The position numbers and the translations under genes were made by a program. From Crossaster papposus (lineage: Eukaryota; Echinodermata; Asteroidea; Velatida; Solasteridae): 64,000 nt of DNA. Numbering within the stretch: position 1 is the first letter of the stretch; each line of letters begins with the position of its first letter. The stretch covers positions 434,001-498,000 of the forward strand of contig JBAIAA010000436.1 in the NCBI GenBank assembly GCA_037893245.1, read 5' to 3'. A model generated the notes under the pieces. It did no database searches, was not told the DNA's origin, and saw only the letters and a program-made list of their open reading frames with translations. Positions 3,101-63,549 of this stretch are shown piece after piece.

Positions 3101-6100
3101 TTATTTTTTAGCTACGATTAAAAATAAAAAATTAAAAATAAAAAATAAAAAACGTTACCCTCACGAATTTCGCGATAGCTGCAGCATTCCAGCGAGTACT
3201 GCTGGTATACATTTATCTACGAACGCCAGTCCTCAAAGTTCGGTCACCTTGTAAATAGGTTTGTATAAACAAGAGATATAATGTATCAATTTGGACAATG
3301 GGGCTGTCAATCATTCTCTGGAGCCTGGAGAAATATTCTTTTGGGGGCCGAGATTTTTTTAAGACTGGGGAACCCTTAAACTGTATCGGAAAAATAAGAG
3401 AAACATATTTTCCAGCAGATGATAGAAACATTTTAACAATTTTCTTAAATAAGTATACAATTCTTTTCGAACCACAATATTGTTTACGGGGGAGATGTCG
3501 CAGAATCGTCAATGGTGATTAAATAGTCGACATCAATTTGGATAGAAATAAATACAGGGTTTGGACTTGGAAACTATAACTTTGTGTTTATTACTTGCAA
3601 CAACAAAACACCCAGATAAATGGCGAAAACTCTACATAAGCTTGGGCGATACCGCGATATTATCGAAAATCGCGATACCAGTTCTTAAACGATTTACGAT
3701 ATGTATACAAAATGTATTAAGATGTACAAATAAAAAGGTGTTAAAAAACCTGAGCCTGTTTATTTACGAAACCCTAGTCCTACAAACAAATAATTCCTAA
3801 GGCTAATTATGTAATTTGCCTTGTTTTTATATAAAACAAGAGATAGGGTACTTAAAGACTTGTTTGAATAAACTCAAAAAAAAATTCCAACAGTTTTCAG
3901 GGGTAAATAATAATACGATTATATTCCAAGTAGGGGCAAGAAATCCAGACAATGATTGACAGCTGACCTACAGATTGTATAACATTGTAGCAAGCAGACC
4001 AACATGCGGCCTGCCATCACTTTGGAATTTCAATAGGCTTGGGATGGGAGCCTAAAAGGTGAAAAAAAACATGCCGACCACTGAAAAATGCTGGCGGGGT
4101 AGTCAAAAGTCAACATTACTGAAGAAACCCGTTAACAGTGACGGCCGGGCTGATGAACTCAGTGAAGAATAGACAACGGGGAGCTCTTGGAAGTTCGCCG
4201 ACTTCGTCATCAGTGTCTTTATTAATGTAGTCTTCCTGAAGCGGACAACGAATCTTATTGGTGGTTCGGGCTCGGGTTGTTCCTGTGGTTGAACAAACTG
4301 CCGTTCATAGACCAATCAAAAAACAATTCTGCAGTTTTACTTCAGTCGGCATAATCCTTTGTGATGTGGTTAATAGCCAGAGCAGCAGGTTCTCTCCACA
4401 GCTCCCGATCCTGCGGTTGGTAGCCGTTATGTTTCTTGTAAAAAAAATGCGACGCACTTTGTGAGACTATTTCTGTGGTTGTTGGCGCTGAAGTGTTGAT
4501 TTTTTATTGACGTCACAAATTAATCGCGATATCATCGAATATCGCGATATATTTTTGACGATATATCGTGGATGAAAAAAAGCGGTATCGCGCGCCCAAG
4601 GCAAGCTTAACTCTACATTTATATCACTCTTCAAAAACTAATTTTAAAGTTTACACATCCCCATTCCACAAGTATTCTGATATGTCACTCCCAGCGGTAC
4701 CCGTTCTACGATCTAAAGAATATTTTATCCGTCGAATTGTTTTTTGTAAGGGAACAGTGGTGTTTGCACTTGCAGCCCAAGCCGATCTTAATAAGCGACA
4801 CAGATACATTGTTTTAAATAACGCATTTGTTTGATTACTGCAAAACACGCCGACTGGTGATTTAAGCAAATTTAAGTTCCAACTTCACAGAAAAATAAAG
4901 AAATACAAGAGACTCAGAATTGTTTGAAAACTTAGTAGTTTAATCTGAATAGCCCTCGGAGAAAGACGCCATCCACGCCTGTTTATTTTTTTCCCAGCAG
5001 CGGCGTATTGAAAACATCAAACACATGTGTACATGTGTTTGATGTTTTCAATACGCCGTTGCTGGGAAAATAATTAACAAGGCGTGGACATGTATAATCA
5101 TCATCATGGGCACAATAGATACCGGCAGCTGCTGGTCATTGAGAAAAGTATCTGATTAATCTTATTGGAACATGACCAAGTACTACAGGCATTACAAATG
5201 CTTTCTAAAATAAATAGATGTTTGAAGAAAGTAAATTCTTCGTGAATAAAACTTGAGGGTATGGCGTAAATGGAAGGTCCATTTATTTTTTATTCGAGTT
5301 CCGTTTAAGCGTTTGAAAAAAATTCTAAACGGATTTGATTTTGTTGACGTTTACACGTTTAAACGTTTAAAGGTCACATCCTTAGTATGTATACAATCAC
5401 TAAAATTGAATTAAAATTTAAATTAAAATTTTCGTTTAAAAAACCCATTTAAACACCGTTACATTTTCCAGATTTAATGTATTTTTTTCTTATAGCACAT
5501 GGTGCTTAGTGTTTTACATGCACTAGTAGGATACCTATAAAACTACTCTTTCTAATCAAATTTCTTGATTTTTTTTTTGAATTTGTTTACATGGAATTAC
5601 CAATTGTTTTATATGACTAATAAAATAAAATTAGAGAATTCAATAGAGAAACACCAGCATATCAAATACATACAGCTTGGGTGTACACTGTATCTGTATT
5701 CATACCCAGATCATGGTAACAACATATGTTAATGGAGCAATTCAAGCACATTTTATGACTTTTTAAAAATACCAGTGTATTTTTATTTATGAATAAGATT
5801 AAAACTGCTGAAAACTGCTTACTGGTTGGAATGACCTGAAATATACAAATCAAATAAGTTGAGAGGGCCTAATATTCCGATCTTAACAAGATCTTCTTCA
5901 TAATATTTATAATGGAATAACAGTCTGACCAGTGACATTTCGAGGTTAGGAGGTTTCTATCATTACACGTCTGCCGACAGCATCAGAACGGATGGATCCC
6001 GAGAATGCCTGGAATCTTAAAATCCCAACGGTGATGGTATCAGGCTAAAATGGTTCGGTCAGTTTCAGCACTGCCAGGCACAGAGTCGGGGCAGCAAGTA

Positions 6101-31689: not shown

Positions 31690-34600
31690 TAATAATAATA
31701 ATGTGACATCACTTGACACGTGATGATGTCCATCATGACATTACTCCAATGTATAACACATCCCACTCTAGGTGCAAGCCAAGTTGCAACCTAATCGGAC
31801 AAGTCCCTGCAAGTCCCTGCAAGTCCCTGCAAGTCCCTGCAAGTCCCTGCAAGTCCCTGCAAGTCCCTGCAAGTCCCTGCAAGTCCCTGCAAGTCCCTGC
31901 AAGTCCCTGCAAGTCCCTGCAAGTCCCTGCAAGTCCCTGCAAGTCCCTGCAAGTCCCTGCAAGTCCCTGCAAGTCCCTGCAAGTCCCTGCAAGTCCCTGC
32001 AAGTCCCTGCAAGTCCCAGCAAGTCCCTGCAAGTCCCTGCAAGTCCCTGCAAGTCCCTGCAAGTCCCTGCAAGTCCCTGCAAGTCCCTGCAAGTCCCTGC
32101 AAGTCCATCACAAGTCCATCACAAGTCCATCACAAGTCCATCACAAGTCCATCACAAGTCCATCACAAGTCCTTCAGTTCTAATTCAAATCGCAAGCTAT
32201 TCAAAACAGCTTTGACAAAAGCATTCCTTTGTCATTGTTCATCCAGTTACTTGCGACTGCCTTTATGAAGGGACTTGTGACTGGCTTCACGGAAGGACTT
32301 GTGAACGGACTTGCAGGGACTCGACTACAACCCTGGATATAGGCCCTTCAAATGTGCACCTCTACTACCAACCCCACCTACACCCCACGGTTTAATTTCA
32401 GCTTCCTTACCTCTGCACCGATAGCTTCGTTGATGGTGGGATGAGCGCATTCGGGAGCCCAGCTGACACATTCTACGACGTGGTCGTGCTCCCTCAGTTC
32501 CAACTTGCATTCCCTGGAGGCAATCACCCAGACCCGCACAGTCTGTCCACAGAAGAAGAAGGAATGTGTGTCTAATTCTTCTCAATTTTTCTTAATCAAT
32601 TCGCAGTTCGGATTATTTTGGCATTGACCAGGGCCAGGCGCGAGATTGTTTTTATTACGAACCTCGATCCGACACTAGGTGCAACAAAACGCATAACACC
32701 AGGGGCCAATTTTATAGAGCTGCTAAGCAACAATTTTTGTTTGGCACAAAAAAGTCTTGCTCATTAAAAACAGTTTACCAGCCAAAACTATACGTGTTTT
32801 TTATGCTAAGCAAAAAAACAGCTGATTATCAATCCATATATTTGGTCTGTAACCTTGTTTTTGCCAAGGACAAATTGTCATGCTAAGCAAATTTTTGTGC
32901 TTAGCAGCTCTATGAAATGGAAATGCGTTGCCTGCTAATTTCAACAACTTTTTACCATTGGTGCATTCTGTTGCATTTAGCAGAGTTAAGGCTAATAGAA
33001 ATTATTAAACAAAATTCAAATGAACCGTTGAGGGTTAGGGTTAATCAATTGATTGGTGTATTAATGGTTACCTGGTCATTGGAAGCACTGGCCAGCAGTG
33101 AGCCATCGTAGTTCACCTTGACCATTCTTACCCAATCCCTGTGACCAACAAAGGTCTTCACACAGTAGCTGGAAAAAAAACCACACAAAAAAAACATTAA
33201 GCAAATGACAATTAAGACCATTCTCACAGCTAAATACATACAACATTTGCTTTTGCTAATTTCTTTTTTATTGGAGCGATTCTGGGGTAAGTTTTTTATA
33301 GAAAATATTGCTAAACTGACACTGTGTTCACCGAAAAGAAGAGGCGTTTGTGTAGTCTGGTTTCCCAACCCCTACGTTAGATGGAACATAGTAATTTGTA
33401 GACGACAGGAATTGCCAGGTCAAGGAACCAGACCACCATTAACCAGTTCGCGCCGGGATTATTTAAACATCACCGAGCTAACGCGCGGAATTATTTTTTA
33501 CGAAACTCAATCCGAGACGGGTTCAGGCCGAAAGTTGCGGGGAAGCACATCCACACATTTCCGGCCTTGCTTGCTGCTGACAGACATTTCCGGCCTTGCT
33601 CGTGGCGTGTTTATGCGTCAACCGTTTTGAATTCGGGGAAAACGTTTATATCTGTCATCCGGCATGAACTGGTTAAAGAAGACAACATAAGTTTTCTCAA
33701 CTTACAAGTCATCCTATCAGCTTTGTACCCAAAATGTGACATTTTCATGTCCCTGTTTACCTCTGAACCTTGGAATTTTATTCAAGGTCATTAAACAAAA
33801 ATGACCTTTTCTCCTACAAATGAGGTACTACAATGCATTTGAATATGGAGGTTTATTTTGCCAAACATTTGACGGTGCCAACAAGAAAAGATCTAAATCT
33901 TGTGCTGACCCTGTGGCCACATCCCACATCTTGATGGTCTTGTCTCGGGAGCCAGATAGCACAAAGTCGCCGGTGGGCATGAAGCTGACAGAGGAGATAT
34001 TGTGATCGTGGCCGCGCATCGTCTTGATACACTCAAAGACCTGGAAATCCCAGAGTTTGACGGTCATGTCGGCCGAGCACGAAGCTGAAAAGAAAAGAAC
34101 AAAAATTAAGGAAAAGGGAAGAAAAACAGGACATCAGCTTGGAAGTACTTAGATCTACTCTCGGTGAAGAATGTAGCAGGCTAGTTACCATGACAAAACA
34201 CTCCAGAATCTGAAGTCTGGAGTCTTCGAGTCTTTGAGTCTGGAGTACCCAAAGTAAAAGAAGCAAAAGTTGTTTTCCAAACACAAGCTTTGTCTCCGTT
34301 TTTGGCTTCGTTCATGCAGTTTAGCATTAGTGATGGAGCCGGAGACGGCGCCTTAGCTGGTGTTTGGAAAACAGCCATAATGTGGTGAAGGAATATTTTT
34401 TGTAAGTAACCAAATGCAAGGTCCAAGATCACGCTAGACCGCGACAAAAATATGCATATCAAAAATAAGCCTTTTTGTATCTCAATAAGGTAGTCCAAGT
34501 CCAACGATATTTGGGAATACAAAAAATCAAATAACAAAAATCGCTTGAGTGATATTATGTCAACGTGTTGCATCTGGTTGACCTTCATGTATCATGAAAT

Positions 34601-50891: not shown

Positions 50892-53800
50892 CTGTGCAAA
50901 GAAAAGAAGAACAGTTTGAAACAAATAACAGACTGAAAATTAAGGCTTTGGGAGTGCCTTGGTTTGCAAAATTCACTGTTAAATTCAAGACCATTTACCC
51001 TACTAAGATGTAGGATGTCACTGGCTTTTAAGCAAACCTAAAGAAAAAAGTTGAACTAAAATTATCAAAAAAGCTGGAATCAAGGTAGGACATTGGAGGA
51101 CAAAATCAGGATAAAAGTAGGACTTTTGTAGTAATTCTTGTTGATTTCAACCCATGTGGGGTTAGGGTTATCGGTAGAAAAATAAAGGGGAACACCTGAG
51201 GGGCCCAGAATCAAAATTTGGGGTTGAAAACAATTTCTGGAAGTGAGAAAAATGAGTTTTTAGTCAACGATTTCATTAATTGCATGAAGGCAAAAAGTGT
51301 GTCTCTGATACACATCTTTGGAAATAACACAATTTTCTATAATTTCACAGAGAGTTTAGAATCAATAATATGTTTACAACAAGTAAGTTTTTTGACAGTA
51401 TTTTGGTTGGTTACTTTTTGGATAGCTGCAAAAGGTCTAGTCCACCTCTAACACCAGCTACATACCTCCACGGTAGCCACCGCCAGTCCGGTCGCCACGG
51501 TAGCCCCCGCCGCCAGTCCGGTCGCCGCGGTAGCCCCCGCCGCCAATCCGGTCACCGCGATAACCCCCACCGCCACTACGGTCGCCGCGATAACCACCAC
51601 CTCCGCCTCCACCGCGATAGTTACCACCTCCGCCTCCACCACGATAGTTACCACCTCCACCTCCACCGCGATAGTTTCCACCGCCACCTCCACCGCGATA
51701 GTTTCCACCTCCGCCCCTGTAGTTCCCGCCCCCGCCCCCGCGATAGCCGCCGCTCCGATCCCCACGATAGCCTCCGCTTCGATCTCCACGATACCCGCCA
51801 CCCCCCCTGCCGCGGTACCCGGACCGCTCGCCGCCCCGGTCCCCACGGTCCCCGCGATAGTTGCCCTGCTTGTCACGGAACTGCTGGCCGCCGCCTTTGC
51901 CGAACCCTCGACCGTCGTTCTGGCGGTACTCCAAGAGGCGCTCGCCGTTCTCTACGAGGTTGTTGACTTTGTCCGCCAGCCGCAGGGCTAGGTTCTGGAG
52001 CTTGGTGGGCTCGCAGCGGTGCATCACCACGGTCTGCGCTGGTTCATCCCAAGACGCCTTGAAAAAAAAATGAAACAAATTGAAACGTTGATTAGAATCG
52101 GTCGTGTAAAGCACCGAACGAAACAGTTTCATCGAAAAACAAGCACGGGTACCTCGCCGGGCAGCTCGAGATAAAAAGTGTGAAGGCTTGAAGAGGGTAG
52201 GTTCAAGATTCCCATTGATTGTTGCATATTTTACCGTTGTGTGTGCGTCACAGATTTAAGCAACTTTGGTCTACTGGGTTAAGCATGCTTTTACTGTGCT
52301 TACTATCTCATGAAAATAGAGGTAAGCTGTGCTAAGCAAACATGGGCTGTTAAGCAGCACTCTAAAATTGGGCCTTACTTAATGTACATTTATCTCATCA
52401 ATAGACTTTACCATGAGTTCCTCATTAATAATCATCTTGCTGATGATACTGTGCACAACAGGTTTCTCCAACTCAAACATCTCAGCCAGTGTGTTCATGC
52501 TAAAATGAAAAGAAAAATTGATTAGAAGAGTATCTTTTGAAAGGTACATTTCTGGCTGGTAACCATGTGGACAAGCTGCACAGACATACAGGTTTAACCA
52601 GTTCGCGCCGGAGGACGTATATATAAGCAAAGTTTTCCCCAGATTCAAATTAAATGACGCATAAACACGCCAGGAGCAAGGCCGGAAATGTCTGTCAGCA
52701 CCGAGCTAGGCCGGAAAATGCGTGGGTGTGCTTCCCAGTACCATCGGCCTAAACCTGCCTCGGATCGAGTTTTGTTAAAAATAATCCTGCGCCTCGGTTT
52801 AGTGATGTTAAATTAATCCCAGCGCGAACTGGTTAATTACAACAAATGAACCGTCTATCTGCATGAATAACAAGGGGATCTGAAGACATAATTTGTTGAA
52901 CAAGGTGTCAGGTTGGATAAATTAAATTGTATTTAAAAAAAAAATTCAACACTACTGCAATTGTTGACGTTTGAGAAAGCAATTATAGCCAGGTATTTTC
53001 AATAAATTTTATTCACGTCTCAAACACAAAACTGCGGCCTCCTTCAAAATTTGTGGAAAACCAGCGCCAGAGGCAAATAATAAATACGAAGACAAAACCT
53101 TGCTTCCAAATAAACATACCTAAGCGAGTCGTAGACACTGCCGTAGGTGAAGAGATACGTCCGCAAACTCTCCTCTTGGATTTTCCTGTAATTACAGAGA
53201 ATTTTTTTTTCTAAATCAGAATTTGACCGAGGCTCTCCCAAATCCATCACAATCCCTTCCCCCTCCCCCATTTTGGCGGATATTGAGGAACTGGGTCCTG
53301 CGGGCCTTAATTGACAAAATTTTGATGGATTATGGTGGACTTGGGCTGGGAGGCCTGAAGCACTGCTGGGGGAATCTGATTGCTTTAGTCAATCAAGCAG
53401 TACGTTTAAAAGAAAAACAGCGAATGGCCTAACGGAAAATTCATAACAGAATTCATTTCAGAATTTTCGTGCTTCATTTCTTTACCTGGTAATAAGCTCC
53501 CTGACGTGGTCGCTGTTCGGGAACAGATTCCAGACTTTCCCGTTCATCTTGTCGTTCAGCAGGTAGTCCTTGCAAGCTCGCCAGTTACCGTAGCGCATGG
53601 CCCGCGAGGCGGCCACCACGTGCTCCCTCATGCTCTCGGGAGGACCCACCAGGGTCTGACGCTCGCTCAGGCGTAGCTGGTGGTGGAAACTCTTGCTGAT
53701 CATGCGCCGACGGATGTCAAAGTTGTGGGCTGTGAAATTAGAGGAAAAGAGATAGTGAGTATTTGGCCGTGTCTGAATTACTTGGCTGCGGCTCGATACT

Positions 53801-56800
53801 ACGCACGAGTCTATGAGATGTGGCTGCAGCCGCTACCATAGACCCGTGCGTAATTTTAAGCCGCAGCCCCAAGTATCTCAGACCCAAGAATTACTTGGCT
53901 GTGGCTCGATATTTCACTCAAGTCTATGAGATGTGGCTGCAGCCGCTACCCAAGAATTACTTGGCTGCGGCTCGATATTACGCACAAGTCTATGAGATGT
54001 GGCTGTAGCCGCTACTATAGACCAGTGCGTAATTTTAAGCCGCAGCCAAGTAATTCAGACACGACCTATTTACTATAAAGCCTCTTACATTCCGTCTTTT
54101 GATTGGCTAACAGCATGTCACATGATATGAAGCCCACTCTGCCAAAAAATGAGGCCGTGTCCGAAACGAGTGTCTAGAGCTACGGTCTATGTCTACAGCT
54201 ACGTCTACGTAGGCGCTAAGACAAATGAAATTCGGACGCGGCTACGGTAGAGACTACGGCTAGTTATTGCACCCCCAAGCGATGCTTGAAATAGTGTTTG
54301 CAAAATTACAATGTAAGAATTTACAACAATTATCGTCTGCTAGATGTTATGCAATGTTTGTTTACAGCCAGTCGAAATACCTGATATATTGACGTATTTG
54401 TCGATCTGTTAGTTTCAATTCAATGCACCATCATTAAAAACTAAACAAAAATTTGCTCTAAAATTAACGTTAGTGCTGCCGCCATTTTGTTTGACCAGAG
54501 CTAGACAACTTCTTTTACGGCTAGATTTTTGTGACGTTGTAGCCGTAGCTGTAGCTCTAGACGGCATTTCGGACAGCGCTACAAAATGGCCGACGCAGAC
54601 AAAAGCCGTGGCTGTAACTCTAGACACCCGTTTCAGACACGGCCTGTGTCTGATGTGACATAATACAGTTTCACGTAAAGGGCTGTTTAATGTCTATTGT
54701 CTAAGAGGTGAGTTTTTTTCTTTGAACAAAGGCTTTTGGGTTTCTCTGATATCTATATATATATCTACATTTCGCAGGGTTAGATCACATATAACAAATT
54801 GTTATAACTTCAACTTTCTATGATGGATTCATGAGGACCGAGTGCATCACTGGGAATTTGCCAACAGTCTCTAGTTGGTATTCTTACAGGCCATGTAGGG
54901 TATCTCCAGCAGCATAGCCGAGACGAGATAGACGCACTCTAACAGCTCTAGATTGATGTGCATGTGGAAGGGCAGCTGGCGAGACTTCTCAATCTTCTCC
55001 TGGGTTGGGTCACGTTCTTGCTGTCTCTGCATCAGCAGACCCTGCAGGTATAACGCACACGAGGAGGTCAATTAAGACAGTGAAATGTCCGGGTCAAAAC
55101 ATTTTAGGTCACCAGTTCTTCATTCAGACATAGGTAAAACAATATGATATGATATACCGTACCCTGTCAAGACATGAACAACAAAATAGGGGCAACAGGA
55201 TTGAATACGTCTCTGCAGGGTAATTTCTATAGGCGACAAAGCTTCCACAAAGATTTCACAGAATAGATATATGGATTTTACTCCAAAAATAGGGTTAGTG
55301 TTTGGGTTTGGTTTTGAGTTAGGGTTAGGGTTAGGATTGGGGTTGGGGTTAGGGTTAGGGTTAGGGTTAGGGTTTAAGGTATAATATAGGATATATTAGG
55401 TCAACATTTCAACCAAGGAAAGTAATTGCGGTTCAAGTAGGAGCATTTTGAACAGTCCACAAACTTTGTACACCTTACTTGATACATGTACTTAATAATA
55501 TATTAGTCTCCTCATACAAATATGGAGACAATGCCATGTCTCCACAGTGATACAAATTGTGTATACAAGTCTCTTTTTGGGATTTGTTCCCGTACCTGTG
55601 CAAGAAGCTCCTTAGCCCTACCCCCGCTCTGGATGTCCAGCAATGCATGATGGGCATCCTTGATGTTACCGTGACGAAACGCACACAGGCCCAGTTGCAC
55701 CATGGTCCGATTGTACAAAATCTAAACATGGAAAGGAAAACCAAAAGAAAATGTTATGTCCATGGCAGCACAAACAAAACCAGCATTTTCCACTTTCCCT
55801 TTTTTTTTTACTCTTGCTCTGTTATAAGCCATTGACTTTAAGAAGAACAATTTGGAAAATTAAGGTGTTTTTGAACATTTAGAAACATAAAGGTTAACAC
55901 AACCTTCTCTGCATATTGAAGGATTCTGCATATGTGACCTGTTCCAACGAAACCCGGACAAAGTCGACTTTTTAGTTTTTCAGATTTTGCTTTTTTCAAA
56001 TTCTCTAGGTTCTCAGCTTTAAAATGATGTATCATTTACATATGTACCCCCACCCTATCTTCCCTGGGGTCTGGATTTAGTGATAAAACCCCGACAACCT
56101 AATTATGAGATAAACAGCTTTGAAGTTCAGAAAAGCGTATTATTTCTATACACAAATGTTTCACAAAATTGACAATAAACACACTTCTGGTAAACGGATT
56201 TTGTTCAAATTTGAGGAGATTGTAGATTAATAGTGAGCGACTTAGGAAAACCTAAAACCTCAAAAGGGTAAAATCCATCTAGAAATGACTTCAGGAGTAC
56301 ATTGTGACAAAACACATTGTGCGACTTTGTCCGGGTTTCGATGGAACAGGTCACATATTGTCATTTACAAAATTTGACTGATTCACACCAAAATTTAAGA
56401 ATAGGCCCCCAAAATTTGGTGGATAGTTGACAAAAACACGATTAAAATAGTTTAAAGTTTGCAGATACTTTAAAGTTTGCAGATACTTTAAGACATAACT
56501 AAGTAACTTACATGTTATATAACTTACAAGTTGTTCGTGTATGGAATTCTTTCTGAAAAAAATGTGTACTGTGACGCGAGGTTTTAGCCAAATCGTTCAA
56601 AATCCTACCTGCGTTGGGATATCAGAGTGTTGTATGTTGGACTGCAGATGGGACATGAGTATGAGATCCCTTGCCATGTACCAGCGATCATGCAGGGCGT
56701 GGTGATAGATGTGGCACAGCATGGCCCGGGTACGGATCAGGTCAGTCGTATCCTTAGAGTAGATGAACTTGCACATGCGATCCATTAGCTCCGCCGAGGT

Positions 56801-59800
56801 CTCTGTGAATTCGAAAAAAAAAAAAAAAATATTGGATGGCGTTTAGAATCTTAGCTCCATAAATCTGCGATCCCGTTAACATGTTGTCTCCCTTCATCTT
56901 TGTGTTGCATTCGGCCCTCGTAGACTCGTGTGTAATTTTAAGTTGTAGCCAAGAAATTCTTCGCTCTCTGGACTTCCTTTATCCCATCGCCTCTGATCTC
57001 CGCCCCTTCAGATATGTACCAGAAAGGATTCCCACTTTGGAAAACACCCCCCCCCCCCAACCTTACTCCTTGACCCCTCTCCCTATACCTCATCCACTCT
57101 AGTATATTCTCTGACCTGGGGCCAATTTCATAGAGCTGCTAAGCACAAAAATTTGCTTAGCATGAAAATTTGTCCTTGGCAAAAACAAGGTTACAGACCA
57201 AATTTTCACGTGATCTTTGTTGTTTTTGATTGATAATTAGCTGGTTTTTGGCTCAGCATGAAAAACACGTAAAACTTTGGCTGATAACTTGTTTTTAATG
57301 AGAAAGACTTTTTTTGTGCTAAGCAAATTTTTGTGCTTAGCAGCTCCGTGAAATTGGCCCCCAGTATTAGATACGACTAAACTTACCGCTGCCATCTCCC
57401 TTTGTGTTTTTGCTGACCTCCTTTTTGTTGTCCGACCCCTCCCCCTCTCCCTCCACTGCAGCCTCTTTTGTGGCATCCTCTTTTGTGGAATCTTCTTTAG
57501 TAGCATCCTCTTTAGTCGCATCCTCTTTAGTCGCATCCTCTTTAGTCGCATCTTCTTTAGTCGCATCTTCTTTTGTGGCATCCTCTTTAGTCGCATCTTC
57601 TTTAGTCGCATCTTCTTTTGTGGCATCTTCTTTTGTGGCAGCCTCTTTAGTCGCATCTTCTTTAGTCGCATCTTCTTTAGTCGCATCTTCTTTAGTCGCA
57701 TCTTCTTTTGTGGCATCCTCTTTAGTCGCATCTTCTTTAGTCGCATCTTCTTTTGTGGCATCCTCTTTAGTCGCATCTTCTTTAGTCGCATTTTCTTTAG
57801 TCGCATCCGCTTTAGTTGCATCCTCTTTAGTCGCATCTTCTTTTGTGGCATCTTCTTCAGTCGCATCCTCTTTTGTGGCATCTTCTTTTGTGGCATCTTC
57901 TTTTGTGGCATCCTCTTTTGTGGCATCCTCTTTAGTCGCATCCTCTTTAGTCGCATCTTCTTTAGTTGCATCTTCTTTAGTGGCATCTTCTTTAGTGGCA
58001 TCTTCTTTTGTGGAATCCTCTTTTGTGGCATTCTCTGTAGTAGCAATCTCCTTAAACACATCCTCCTTTGTAGCATTCTCTTTAGTCGCATCTTCTGTGG
58101 CATCCTCTTTAGTCGCATCTTTTGTGGCATCTTCTTTAGTGGTATCCTCTTCTGTGGAATTCTCTTTAGTAGCATCCTCTTTAGTAGCATCCTCTTTAGT
58201 ACCATCTTCTTTTGTGGAATCTTCTTTAGCGGTATCCTCTTTTGTGGCATCCTCTTTAGTATCATCTTCTTTTGTGGCATCCTCTTTTGTGGAATCTTCT
58301 TTAGTAGCATCCTCTTTAGTAGCATCCTCTTTAGTAGCATCCTCTTCAGTCGCATCATCTTTAGTCACATCTTCTTTCAACCCCTCCTTCTCCTCCAAAC
58401 TTCCTTTCTCCTCCTCTTTGCCGTTCTTAGTTCCTTCCCCAGTTTCCACCTCTGTCTTGTTGTCTCCGGTCTTGTTGTCTTCAGTCTTGTTGGGATCCTT
58501 GCCCATCCCTTCTTGGCTCTCCTTCAGAATCTTGGCTCGTCTCTCCTGGACCTGCTCCTCAAGCTGCTGCAACTTGTCGTAGTCATACTGCAAGGAAGAC
58601 CAGGGCAAATAGCATCATAGGCGCCAACGAATGGGGCTTGGTGTTTTGTTTTTTTAATCAAGTCCCAGTTAGGCGATATTTTTTTTATATGCGAGGGGTT
58701 CTAGCAAAATGAGACGGAACTGGGCAGAGGTTGAAATGTGGGTTCTCAGGTATTAGAAAAAGAGGATAAAATTCTCCTTAAAATGCTGTGTCGCACTTCA
58801 ATCTGACATTCCATTAACAAGTTATGGCTTCTTAAAATTCGTATTTATCAACATATCACAAAAGTAAAATATTTTTAAAAAGGCCTTTGAAGCTTCGAGT
58901 TTCGTACATGTGATATAGACAAATATCCAAATGTCCAAAAGACACTTTTATAACTCATTTCGACCTGCCTAGTTCTGCCTCATTTTTGCCAGAACGCCTA
59001 ACATTCGTTTGATTTACTCCAAGTTTGTGCGAGACTCCAATTTCTATGCCTTTATTTTCTCCACCTACCTTGTAGTAGATGTGGTTGATGTAGCGCATGT
59101 AGATGCGACAGAGATCCGAGGCACTACCCCGCTCCTCGATGTAAGACTGCAGCGTAGTGATGATCTTAGTCACTCGGGTCTCATCCTTCAATCTGTTACA
59201 GTGATCATTCCACAAAATAAGGACGGTTCTCAAAACTTGAGTCTCGCCTACTTTTGCAATTACCTTATTTTATAACTTAACCTCAAATGACCTTTGACCT
59301 CAGTTGTGACCTTCAATATCCCCAGCACGTGCAATTTTCCATATTGCATCTATCACCCAAGTTTGATTGCAATTCAACTTCACGTTTTCAAATGAGACAA
59401 ATTTTACAATTCCAGCCGCTTGTACAACTTGACCTAAATAGACCTATGACCTTTGACCAGTACTTGACCTTTGACACGACAATTATATAAAGTTTAAAAT
59501 TTTGCAAGAATAACGCAAGTTTGAATGCAATTAAACTGCAAGTTTGCATATAAGACAAACTTTTCGGAACTTTAACCAAAATGGCTCGTATACACAGACG
59601 GCCTAAATACTACGTACAGAACTAATGATTGCAGAGTCTCTTTCTGAATTTCGTTCAGGTGATGGCCTATCATACGTGAACCCTAACCCTCTAAGATACT
59701 CTGGCTAAAAAACAGTTAATCGTAAAAATAATAAGACTTTAAGATAATAAAAACTAAAAACCAGTTAATCGTAAAAAATAATAAGACTTTAAGATAATAA

Positions 59801-62800
59801 GACTTTAATAAGAAGTTACAGAATGCAGTTCCTGAGCTATCGTACCTCTCAACAAATTCCGTGGAGTGTGCGTCAGCTGACTGCAGGATCTTAGTAAACT
59901 CCTTGTCCATCCGTTCCACAATGGTCAACACACAGCCTCGAATCCGATATGGCTTCTCCTACAATCACACAAATCATTCACTCAAATATTAGAGAGGTTT
60001 CGCCTGCAAACGGATACGGTTAGCTTAACGGATACGTCATTAATTTTCGCGGACTTATGACGTCACAGTTTCTCACTATCCGCTAACCGTGTACAAGGCA
60101 CGGATATCTCGCTTGCTACACGTAAGTATAAAACGCGTACGGATAGCTCAACGTACACGTACGCGTATCTGTTCGTATCGAAACCTCTCTATTATCTTTA
60201 AAAAAATATATGTATCGAGTTCTGCACTTCCCCAACAATTAAACAAAAAATATTTTACCCAATATTTAATGTACATCACCCTGACCAAAATTTCATTTTA
60301 CAATTTTTTTACAATTTTAATTGGTATAATTTTAAACTGAATGTACATGTATATTGCATGTAGCCGAGATGGGGTATATATTTTTGTTTGATAACCTATT
60401 AAACCCAAACTCCCAACTTAGTTTTACTTTATACTAGAGGAATGTGTCTGTTACAATCCATCACTCGTATTGCTCAATATAATGCCTTAGGACATATGCT
60501 ACATTCCAATCGTGTCGTGTTTATCGTGTTCACGAGTTCACGAGTTCACGAGTTCACGAGTCGTGTAATGGTGTTCACCAGTAGTGAACTCGAGGTGGAT
60601 TTTTTTTATCCATGTTCACGACTTTATAAACGAATAAAATACTCGCGCATGCGTGTTGGTTCACGTACGAGTTCTCGCGCGATAAAGAATGTCCTTACCG
60701 CACGACTAACTCGACTGTGCGCGTGCGTCTTGGTGGGTAGCGTTTGGAATGCAACCTACTCGTGAACGTTGAGAAATTTACGGTGAACACGATAAACACG
60801 ACGCGATTGGAACGCAGCATAAATTCATTGAAATTCACCACTGGTGCTGGTGTATTTTGATGGACTTGGTACACATCACCTTTTTCTTTAGCCAAAACCT
60901 ACCAAATTGAGGGTGGATTTTGATGAAGTTAGTAAAAGGTTATGGTTAGAGGCTAGGGGATGGCTAGAGGATGGTTCCTAGCCAAAGGGTTCTAAGGGGT
61001 TAGGGTTAAAGACTTCAGCTCTTAACCAGTTCGCGCCGGGATTATTTTAACATCACAGAGCCGATGCGCAGGATTATTTTTAACAAAACTCGATCCGAAG
61101 CAGGTTCAGGAACGCCAGTACCGGGAAGCACACCCACGCATTTCCGGCCTGGCTCGCTGCTTACAGACATTTCCGGCCTGGCTCGCTGCTTACAGACATT
61201 TCCGGCCTTGCTCGCTACTGACAGACATTTCCGGCCTTGCTCGTGGCGGGTTTATGCGTCATCCGTTTTGAATCTGGGTAAAAACTTTGCGTTTATATTC
61301 CTCATCCGGAGCGAACTGGTTAAAGATGTAACAGCTGACTTACATTGTAGGTTTCAGAGTCTTCAGGGATGTTCTCATTGACAGTGATGTCAAGATTATT
61401 CCTCAGTATCTCAAGGATCTCAGAGACGCAGTCCAAACACCTAGCAACAGAGACGGAGAAAAACACGGGGAAAATTACATTTTAGAGAAATAAGTTATCG
61501 AGGACCAAACAATTTAGCAGATCACAGAAACAAGGGTCATAGTCAAATGGTACATGTCACGGATCCAATGAAAATGAGTTGTCTGTTTGTCGGGCGAGTT
61601 GTCTGTTTGTCGGGCGAGTTGAGTTGTCTGTTTGTCGGGCGAGTTGAGTTGTCTGTTTGTCGGGCGAGTTGAGTTGTCTGTTTGTCGGGCGAGTTGAGTT
61701 GTCTGTTTGTCGGGCGAGTTGTCCGTTTGTCGGGCGAGTTGTCCGTTTGTCGGGCGAGTTGTCCGTTTGTCGGGCGAGTTGTCCGTTTGTCGGGCGAGTT
61801 GTCCGTTTGTCGGGCGAGTTGTCCGTTTGTCGGGCGAGTTGTCCGTTTGTCGGGCGAGTTGTCCGTTTGTCGGGCGAGTTGTCCGTTTGTCGGGCGAGTT
61901 GTCCGTTTGTCGGGCGAGTTGTCCGTTTGTCGGGCGAGTTGTCCGTTTGTCGGGCGAGTTGTCCGTTTGTCGGGCGAGTTGTCCATTTGTCGGGCGAGTT
62001 GTCCGTTTGTCGGGCGAGTTGTCTGTTTGTCGGGCGAGTTGTCCATTTGTTGGGCAAGTTGTCTGTTTGTCGGACGAGTTGTGTGTTTGTCGCGCAGGTT
62101 GTCTGTCTGTTTGTTTGATTGTTTGTTAGCAGGATTACTACAAAAAACTATTGGAGGGATTTTTACAAAACTTGGTGGGTAGATAGCTTATGGGTCAAGG
62201 TTGATTCCATCAAATTGTCAGATTGATCTGGATCCAGATCAGGAATCTGGATGACCTTTAAAAATCTGAATGGTTTTTTTTCACGTTGGGAGATAGGGTG
62301 TTTTTTCTGGTTGGGTGAGATTTGCCAATGGAGGGCGCTGTACTGGACAGCCGGTACCATTGGGACGTGTTTTGGGGGTTGAGGATGAGGTCTGAGCTCC
62401 GAGTGCCCTTTTTAAGTTGACTTACTTCATCCACATGTCCGGCTTCATACACGTAGCAACGTTGGGGTTGTAGTCGTAGATCGCCGCCGTGATGTTGAAC
62501 AGCACCTTCAGGTCGATGGCCACGCCCAGGTTGTTCTGCGTTGCGATAGTCCGCAGCTCTCGCAGCAGCTCAATCTGCTCTTTACGGTTGGTGCCCTTGC
62601 GGCCGCGGGCCGAGACGATCTCGTGAAGCTTCTTATTGACCAAGGTGTGCGTGATGTCCGTGCCTTTGTCAAACATCACCTGGGAACATTTTGGAAACAG
62701 GTTACACAAACCGGTTTTACTCGAACAACTTCCTACACAAAATGTCTGTTTAAAAAAAGCTGCCCCAATTTGTCATTATTACCCATTAGCACAGGTTTAT

Positions 62801-63549
62801 CCACAAATAATGTTGTGCAGGGTGGTAACAAAACAATTTTTTTATTATCTAAACATGCGGCGGCAGTCTAGAGGCAAGAAATTGGACGTATGGTCCAATT
62901 TCAGAGAGGTCCACATTACACGATTACACCACTACTGCAACCCAGTCAGACAGTATGACCTTTGACCTATGACCTATGACCTATGACCTCACCTTACTGA
63001 TGGGCAACCCCTTGGTGACCTTTGTCCACTCTTCGTCCCCTTCTTCCTCCTCTTCCTGCTTGGCTCGTCTGGCTTCGCGCTCTTTGCGACGGTGGAGGCG
63101 CACGTTCGTTTGATGATCCTCCTTCTCCGGATTATTCCTGCGATTTTTGTTTGTATAAAACAAAACTCGGCTCTCAATTTCAAATATTTCATCTTCATAT
63201 TTTAAATATTTAACCTTTAAATTATTTGTTACTCTTTTTTTTAAGTTAAGTGTTCAAAGATGGTGGACAAAATACTGTTCTTGTGGTCTGGCTCCCTGAC
63301 CCTACTTCAGACGAAACAAAGCACTTCATTGACAGAATAATTGTTAGGTCAGGGAACCAGACTGGCTAGCTTGCACCAGTTCTTAGATATGTAATCAATT
63401 GCACAAAAAATTTTGACGTATTAAATTTGGTAAATTGGGGGAAGGCTTTCAAAAACAGAAATCCGTCGAGCAGTTGGAAAAACAGTTTTCTTGAAAATGA
63501 CAAAACACCTTTTTTTTTTACCTTGAGTTCGCCTCCGACTTTTGAATCA
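50863..63549 (-). CDS. EIF3C: Eukaryotic translation initiation factor 3 subunit C, N-terminus missing, fifteen exons
   Basis: eIF3c is a core scaffold subunit of eIF3, which binds the 40S ribosome and recruits eIF1 and eIF5. Exons in order: 63522-63549, 62993-63137, 62426-62679, 61344-61440, 59846-59958, 59069-59192, 57387-58587, 56609-56802, 55596-55721, 54888-55041, 53486-53729, 53120-53185, 52412-52499, 51466-52057 and 50863-50891. All are GT-AG with agreeing phases; about 1150 codons are present. Landmarks: a charged [20 protein letters not shown] segment, [92 protein letters not shown], the PCI domain ([55 protein letters not shown]) and an RGG-rich tail. The KEDAT-repeat exon is described separately. 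The N-terminus lies beyond 64000. Confidence 0.96.
51466..52057 (-). CDS. EIF3C: EIF3C exon encoding the C-terminal RGG-rich tail
   Basis: The exon opens with [20 protein letters not shown] and [20 protein letters not shown], conserved in eIF3c. About 130 residues of GYRGDR, GGYRGG and GGGNYRGGG repeats follow. Arg-Gly-Gly tracts are typical RNA-binding and arginine-methylation sites. Human eIF3c has only a short GYRRGGYRQ-type tail. Codons are GC-rich compared with the rest of the window. Confidence 0.92.
52594..52836. mobile_element. TTAACCAGTTCGCG MITE, copy 4
   Basis: Complete copy with TTAA at both ends: TTAACCAGTTCGCGCCGGAG and CAGCGCGAACTGGTTAA. It runs in the same direction as the 16663 copy and opposite to the 33439 and 61022 copies. 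Confidence 0.82.
53224..53385 (+). repeat. Interspersed repeat, TTTTGATGGATT family, copy 2
   Basis: Inverted relative of 39493-39660: CTCCCAAATCCATC, GGGTCCTGC, AAATTTTGATGGATTATGGT and GGACTTGGGC appear in the opposite order and strand. Confidence 0.5.
53765..54066. mobile_element. Foldback element, GTGTCTGAATTACTTGGCTG ends
   Basis: GGCCGTGTCTGAATTACTTG (left) is matched by its complement CAAGTAATTCAGACACGACC (right). Between lie three direct copies of an ACTTGGCTGCGGCTCGATA ... AGTCTATGAGATGTGGCTG segment, some followed by inverted parts. A partial relative is at 56921-56960. Confidence 0.75.
54152..54645. mobile_element. TIR element, GGCCGTGTCCGAAACGAGTG ends
   Basis: The left end, AGGCCGTGTCCGAAACGAGT with GTCTAGAGCTACGG, is matched in inverted orientation by AACTCTAGACACCCGTTTCA and GACACGGCCT. 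Inverted ends are about 35 bases and the element about 494 bases. Similar ends occur at 26612-26750. Confidence 0.75.
55318..55374 (+). repeat. Interstitial telomere-like (TTAGGG)n array
   Basis: About nine units of TTAGGG with variants (TTAGGATTGGGG, TTGGGG). It is preceded by looser TTGGGT/TTAGTG sequence from 55290 and lies in an EIF3C intron. Confidence 0.85.
57118..57362. mobile_element. GCTGCTAAGCA MITE copy adjoining the KEDAT exon
   Basis: Full-length 245-base copy, GGGGCCAATTTCATAGAGCT to GCAGCTCCGTGAAATTGGCC. It lies only 24 bases from the donor side of the 57387-58587 exon. Confidence 0.8.
57387..58587 (-). CDS. EIF3C: EIF3C giant exon with KEDAT pentapeptide array
   Basis: The exon is 1201 bases (400 codons and one base) with a normal acceptor (CTTCCTTGCAG) and donor (GTAAGT). 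It begins [20 protein letters not shown], conserved in position with human FDYKAHQ. An E/K/G/N-rich stretch follows, then about 60 copies of a 15-base unit encoding KEDAT (variants [20 protein letters not shown]). It ends [20 protein letters not shown] before ELMDRMCKF resumes in the next exon. The segment replaces a human linker of about 25 residues. Alternating Lys and Glu/Asp suggests a charged, flexible or helical segment with net charge about -1 per unit. Confidence 0.9.
57465..58380. repeat. Coding minisatellite, 15-bp unit
   Basis: On the plus strand the unit reads GCATCTTCTTTAGTC or GCATCCTCTTTTGTG with few variants, in about 61 tandem units. Units keep the 15-base period, with rare changes such as loss of one codon pair near 58095-58130. 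The period is divisible by three, so length changes preserve the EIF3C frame. Confidence 0.95.
59990..60191. mobile_element. Small TIR element, TAGAGAGGTTTCG ends
   Basis: TAGAGAGGTTTCG on the left and CGAAACCTCTCTA on the right are perfect inverted ends. The 200-base interior is rich in short palindromic ACGGATA/GTACACG motifs. Confidence 0.72.
60495..60821. mobile_element. TIR element, TATGCTACATTCCAATCG ends
   Basis: The left end TATGCTACATTCCAATCGTG, continuing TCGTGTTTATCGTGTTCAC, is matched in inverted orientation on the right by GTGAACACGATAAACACGAC and GCGATTGGAACGCAGCATA. This is about 38 paired bases with four mismatches. Four tandem CACGAGTT units follow the left end. Confidence 0.8.
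61022..61323. mobile_element. TTAACCAGTTCGCG MITE, copy 5, with internal duplications
   Basis: Complete with TTAA at both ends (TTAACCAGTTCGCGCCGGGA and CCGGAGCGAACTGGTTAA). The internal ATTTCCGGCCTGGCTCGCTG unit of about 31 bases is repeated four times, which makes it longer than the other copies. Confidence 0.82.
61576..62110. repeat. Minisatellite: 20-bp GAGTTGTCCGTTTGTCGGGC, about 25 units
   Basis: Near-perfect 20-base units. Four early units carry an extra GAGTT (25 bases). Early and late units have T at the eighth base (GTCTG), and the middle ones have C (GTCCG). It lies in EIF3C intron sequence between exons 62426-62679 and 61344-61440. The long open frames across it are repeat artefacts. 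Confidence 0.97.
62120..62410 (+). repeat. Interspersed repeat with GATCTGGATCCAGATC core
   Basis: ACAAAACTTGGTGGGTAGAT, AGCTTATGGGTCAAGG and GATTGATCTGGATCCAGATC match, with changes, the segment at about 405-600 (GAAACTTGATGGGTACATGA, GATCTGGATGCAGATCGGGA). The class is unknown; similar GGATCCAGATC repeats are scattered in many invertebrate genomes (recalled, not checked). Confidence 0.5.
63290..63515. repeat. Interspersed repeat, TTAGGTCAGGGAACCAGACT family
   Basis: GTCTGGCTCCCTGACCC (63288-63304) faces TTAGGTCAGGGAACCAGACT (63343-63362) in inverted orientation. The following segment, with CTTGCACCA and TTTTCTTGAAAATGACA, matches 12687-12850. The repeat ends right before the EIF3C microexon donor. 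Confidence 0.5.
63522..63549 (-). CDS. EIF3C: EIF3C microexon, 28 bases
   Basis: A good acceptor (TTTCTATTTGCTTCTTAG) and a donor (AAG followed by GTAAAA) bracket 28 bases that read IQKSEANS in frame with the next exon (NNPEKEDHQ). The length fits the required phases. No homologous peptide is certain here because the region is poorly conserved, so the call rests on splice signals and frame. Confidence 0.55.

Follow-up and report, generated by a model that had tools for sequence, protein, structure and literature searches.

A 15-bp minisatellite in frame within a predicted eIF3c exon of Crossaster papposus

The eIF3c gene of the sea star Crossaster papposus hosts a tandem array of 15-bp units which, read in the frame of the gene, spells the pentapeptide KEDAT many times over. 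How may a core translation initiation factor have come to accommodate such an array, and does the array serve a function? The question is addressed here by analyzing the 64-kb stretch of genomic DNA that includes 13 exons of the gene (hereafter, the window). The favored answer, to which we assign a probability of roughly 0.68, is that a 15-bp coding minisatellite expanded within an eIF3c exon and is translated, most plausibly as a tolerated, nearly neutral passenger or, at most, as an extended spacer.

The eIF3c gene and its array-bearing exon

The gene for eIF3c (eIF3 subunit 8) lies on the minus strand of the window. Thirteen exons with GT-AG ends could be joined from 63137 to 51461 (62993-63137, 62426-62679, 61344-61440, 59846-59958, 59069-59192, 57387-58587, 56609-56802, 55596-55721, 54888-55041, 53486-53729, 53120-53185, 52412-52499 and 51461-52057). 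The resulting frame encodes 1134 residues, and is free of stops from 63137 until the TAG found after 51461. The Pfam domain eIF-3c_N is recognized with 533 bits (cut-off 24.2) in two stretches, split by the array, and the PCI domain with 46.3 bits (cut-off 22). PDB searches with the model retrieved mammalian eIF3c (E = 1e-244), to which the core and the PCI domain align over about 240 residues before the linker hosting the array, and over 345 residues after it. The first exons fall outside the window; a human N-terminal peptide, used as query, has matches within the 10 kb that follow upstream. Exon 56609-56802 has a single match in the whole assembly (1,023,315,904 bases, 1.02 Gb). Given this single match, and the lack of stops in 13 exons, the gene is best regarded as the eIF3c orthologue, rather than as an extra or dead copy.

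Matches to collagen VI (27.5 bits, 41.7 with the whole model) and to the histone-like HC2 family (23.4 bits, under the cut-off of 40) are compositional. No match was found in a collection of viral contigs, which is not meant for animals. A collection of prokaryotic genomes, similarly not meant for animals, yielded one weak match to an eIF3c piece (36% identity, residues 54-95) at 5001-5141 of a contig titled Anaerolineales, which may be due to chance or contamination.

The array-bearing exon (57387..58587, minus strand) is 1201 nt long, and its borders are cttgcag/TATGAC at one end and GCAGCG/gtaagt at the other. In a simple weighted scan of the region 57300-58700, no other donor exceeded 6.1 bits and no other acceptor had more than 10 pyrimidines out of 18; the two borders, with 9.6 bits and 15 pyrimidines, are thus the best donor and acceptor of the region. 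The initial annotation had assigned good splice sites to both ends of the interval, and this holds; the interval that it had delimited coincides exactly with the exon. The upstream exon (59069..59192, minus strand) ends with the residues HIYYK, and in the PDB alignment follows mammalian eIF3c as far as residue 513. The match resumes from residue 544 in the downstream exon (56609..56802, minus strand). Conserved eIF3c residues are thus found on both sides of the array, in frame with it, and PDB and Pfam data agree with the earlier claim that the flanking peptides are those of eIF3c, and that the array sits within one coding exon, in place of a short linker. An open frame alone proves little here, as the array can be read without stops in three other frames. 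The coding status of the latter rests on flanking homology, splice sites and phase, from which splicing and translation of the exon are predicted.

The KEDAT array and the linker that it occupies

The array (57454..58377, minus strand) is made by 62 units of 15 nt, 60 complete and 2 reduced to 12 nt, with consensus AAAGAGGATGCCACT (KEDAT), and corresponds to 308 residues; the earlier estimate of about 61 units and 300 residues was thus close. Tandem Repeats Finder delimits it to 57458-58377 (period 15, 61.7 copies, 83% matches, score 993). The highest repeat score was 78 in 100 base shuffles of the exon, and 163 in 100 triplet shuffles. The units are of 29 distinct sequences, and at the protein level the array is mostly KEDAT, the exact pentapeptide being counted in 39 copies. 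Tandem units of at least 10 bp, all found in one exon, with a period divisible by three, qualify the array as a coding minisatellite. As had been proposed, this period permits changes in length without frameshift.

In a genome search with 80 array residues, 139 matches were found, 150 of the 5718 candidates having been scored. In this set, the four matches with identity of at least 85% (85-100%) all derive from this array, and the others do not exceed 60%. At 16 of the weaker places (9 + 7 loci) the KEDAT-like sequence belongs to an array of short period in which several frames are open, and these arrays have been taken as non-coding satellites. Among the titles listed by literature searches, none dealt with eIF3c and a tandem repeat, and those obtained for KEDAT were noise; searches on eIF3c in sea stars, and on disordered tandem-repeat proteins in echinoderms, did not reveal such an array either, which is not proof of absence in print.

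The linker between the conserved eIF3c stretches measures 402 residues in this animal, in contrast with the 30 residues found in 7/7 mammalian-type and the 34 found in 6/6 yeast-type PDB sequences. These lengths have been computed from alignment ends for the 13 sequences matched on both sides; a fourteenth (7ase), matched downstream only, gave no length. Linker length is a variable property, not a family-defining trait of eIF3c. The non-repeat start of the linker spans 70 residues (58378..58587, minus strand), and single-sequence AlphaFold2 predicts with high confidence that about 27 residues at its beginning form a helix (2-28). In the linker this is the only helix; what follows is modeled as unstructured, and the array as devoid of secondary structure (mean pLDDT 48.5), which is weak evidence, and the protein used began with one extra, intron-derived residue. 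Amino acid composition agrees with disorder. The array contains 57 K/R and 119 D/E residues (net charge -62), and charges are mixed more evenly than in 500 out of 500 shuffles. The product is most likely a long, well-mixed, net-negative polyampholyte loop, predicted to be disordered.

A second repetitive stretch, found by Tandem Repeats Finder and by composition, forms the C-terminus of the modeled protein (51461..51920, start approximate, minus strand). It is a tail of 153 residues rich in G, R and Y, with net charge +18, while only 35 residues follow the same point in mammalian eIF3c (913-residue chains). Once array and tail are removed, the net charge of the model is 0.

Variation among units and neighboring minisatellites

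Distinct variants relative to the consensus include 7 of 9 possible synonymous and 15 of 34 possible non-synonymous changes, and neither of the 2 possible stops. The absence of stops is uninformative, because two reverse frames are equally stop-free across the array. Synonymous variants are present in more copies, and multi-copy variants are mostly synonymous (Mann-Whitney p = 0.009, a value which overstates independence, as units are copied from one another). On a spanning tree built from the unit types, synonymous changes number 14 out of 39 (24% expected). By count, variable sites are mostly third positions, the mean minor fraction being 0.30 there, and 0.06 and 0.04 at the other two. We interpret this pattern as weak constraint on the amino acid sequence inside the array, where evidence for selection is weak. 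The two ends of the array differ in age, as expected of growth from one end: among full units, 15 of the 23 at the N-terminal side depart from KEDAT, compared with 6 of the 37 at the C-terminal side.

Other minisatellites are found nearby. An eIF3c intron contains a non-coding array at 61576..62103, identified by Tandem Repeats Finder and used for comparison (about 25 copies, 94% matches; strand is not meaningful), made by 20- and 25-bp units, which vary hence by 5 bp. Two successive arrays, open in several frames, were detected by the same program at 31800-32176: one of 10-bp units (31800-32106, 30.7 copies, 99% matches) and, after it, one of 11-bp units (7 copies). A 19-bp array (35.7 copies, score 1086), at contig positions 505931-506613, precedes the start of eIF3c by about 2 kb. 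None of these periods is divisible by three. Both indels in the KEDAT array measure 3 nt, and keep the frame, in contrast to the 5-bp steps of the intronic array and to the 10 and 11 bp of the 31800 array; with two cases only, the number is too small for a test. This stretch of the genome grows minisatellites, and many arise. A literature search on starfish minisatellites found nothing.

Origin and possible roles of the array

Expansion of the 15-bp unit would have occurred inside one eIF3c exon by replication slippage or unequal exchange. The site would have been the short linker that joins two conserved helical stretches, plausibly a permissive disordered loop, and there the array could grow without harm, its 15-nt period being divisible by three. 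Where a genome yields many arrays, one with a 15-nt period located in a disordered linker could well be the one able to expand. Translated as part of eIF3c, it would form a disordered, strongly charged, net-negative loop of about 300 residues, and selection would mainly act to keep the array in frame and its unit of the same overall character. Of the roles initially suggested, spacer and neutral passenger both fit the data, the latter best. What speaks against a wholly neutral expansion is the linker length of 30-34 residues kept in mammals and yeast, which would need explaining.

The array might alternatively be an electrostatic element, an acidic tether placed by the 40S-binding part of the protein, which competes with RNA or with the basic, G/R-rich tail of eIF3c itself, translation being tuned by copy number. 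The opposite charges of array and tail in an otherwise neutral model, the even mixing of charges and the KEDAT unit kept in 39 copies all favor this reading, as does the N-terminal helical element of eIF3c, placed next to the ribosome according to the portion of PMC4151992 considered. Yet the genome makes many minisatellites, and a literature search worded for this general concept found nothing; we deem such a role unlikely. More doubtful still is the specific version in which a lineage-specific, copy-number-tunable tether, opposite in charge to the basic tail, would be engaged in screening or competing for RNA at the site of contact between eIF3c and the 40S subunit, the number of repeats setting initiation behavior. 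The analysis weakens another early suggestion, that casein kinase 2 uses the array as a phosphorylation platform. S/T-x-x-D/E sites are abundant, 58 in the 308 array residues versus 9 in the 579 residues making up the rest of the model. However, casein kinase 2 is disfavored by basic residues at +1 and by threonine; of these 58 sites, all acidic at +3, as many as 48 carry K or R at +1 and 3 only are also acidic there, and nearly all are threonines. An N-terminal eIF3c site is listed in the phosphosite tables of a study of CK2-mutant cells (PMC9943641), but the reported eIF3c sites considered here are N-terminal serines, not linker residues, and the platform appears highly improbable.

The remaining alternatives deny either the presence of the full array in the protein or its flexibility. 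Most transcripts could lack the exon or the array, or the assembly could have produced an artefactual length. Tandem arrays are hard to assemble, the size of the array in the protein depends on one assembly, and its length may be misassembled; moreover, a donor-like site of 6.1 bits is found inside the exon, at 57418. On the other hand, the length of the exon leaves a remainder of 1 when divided by three, so that skipping it would shift the frame. The assigned donor and acceptor are the best of the region, and the purine-rich array provides no acceptor with more than 9-10 pyrimidines out of 18. A protein lacking the full array is accordingly held to be very unlikely. Least credible of all is a rigid strut, in which the array would fold into one long helix stabilized by contacts between E and K residues four apart. 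The glutamate at position 2 of KEDAT does precede by four residues the lysine of the next unit, but the single-sequence AlphaFold2 model has no helix in the array, with pLDDT mostly below 50; models of this type are poor, and the result is not final.

The tolerated coding minisatellite, which remains our preferred reading, has parallels. The kind of repeat is already known, and what is unusual is the host protein, and the place within eIF3c. Long internal exons are described in the consulted part of PMC12457776 as enriched in tandem repeats and disorder, with repeat content rising with exon length. The KEDAT array shares with them the long internal exon, the tandem repeat, the predicted disorder and the frame-keeping indels; yet fixed indels are almost all shorter than 19 nt there, whereas a whole array of 924 nt is found here in a core translation factor. 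Many tandem-repeat proteins have also been reported in the sea anemone Nematostella (PMC2805694). Like the array, itself predicted to be disordered, these feature units of 5-20 residues, segments of about 150 residues and disorder, and 80% of the segments are readable in more than one frame; eIF3c and KEDAT are not named in the part considered, and the term "initiation factor" does not occur in the text. If translated, the C. papposus array would be a natural experiment on the amount of bulk and charge that a core 43S component can tolerate, and on whether repeat length affects translation. It would also illustrate how a minisatellite-rich genome can reshape one of its core proteins, as long as the repeat period preserves the frame.

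Two additional frames with domain matches were noted in the window. A plus-strand frame at 44686-45105 matches Methyltransf_10 (121 bits), and is presumably METTL16-like. A minus-strand frame at 11707-12132 matches CLU_N (30 bits, cut-off 25), and corresponds to the N-terminus of a CLUH-like protein, the yeast relative of which has been linked to eIF3.
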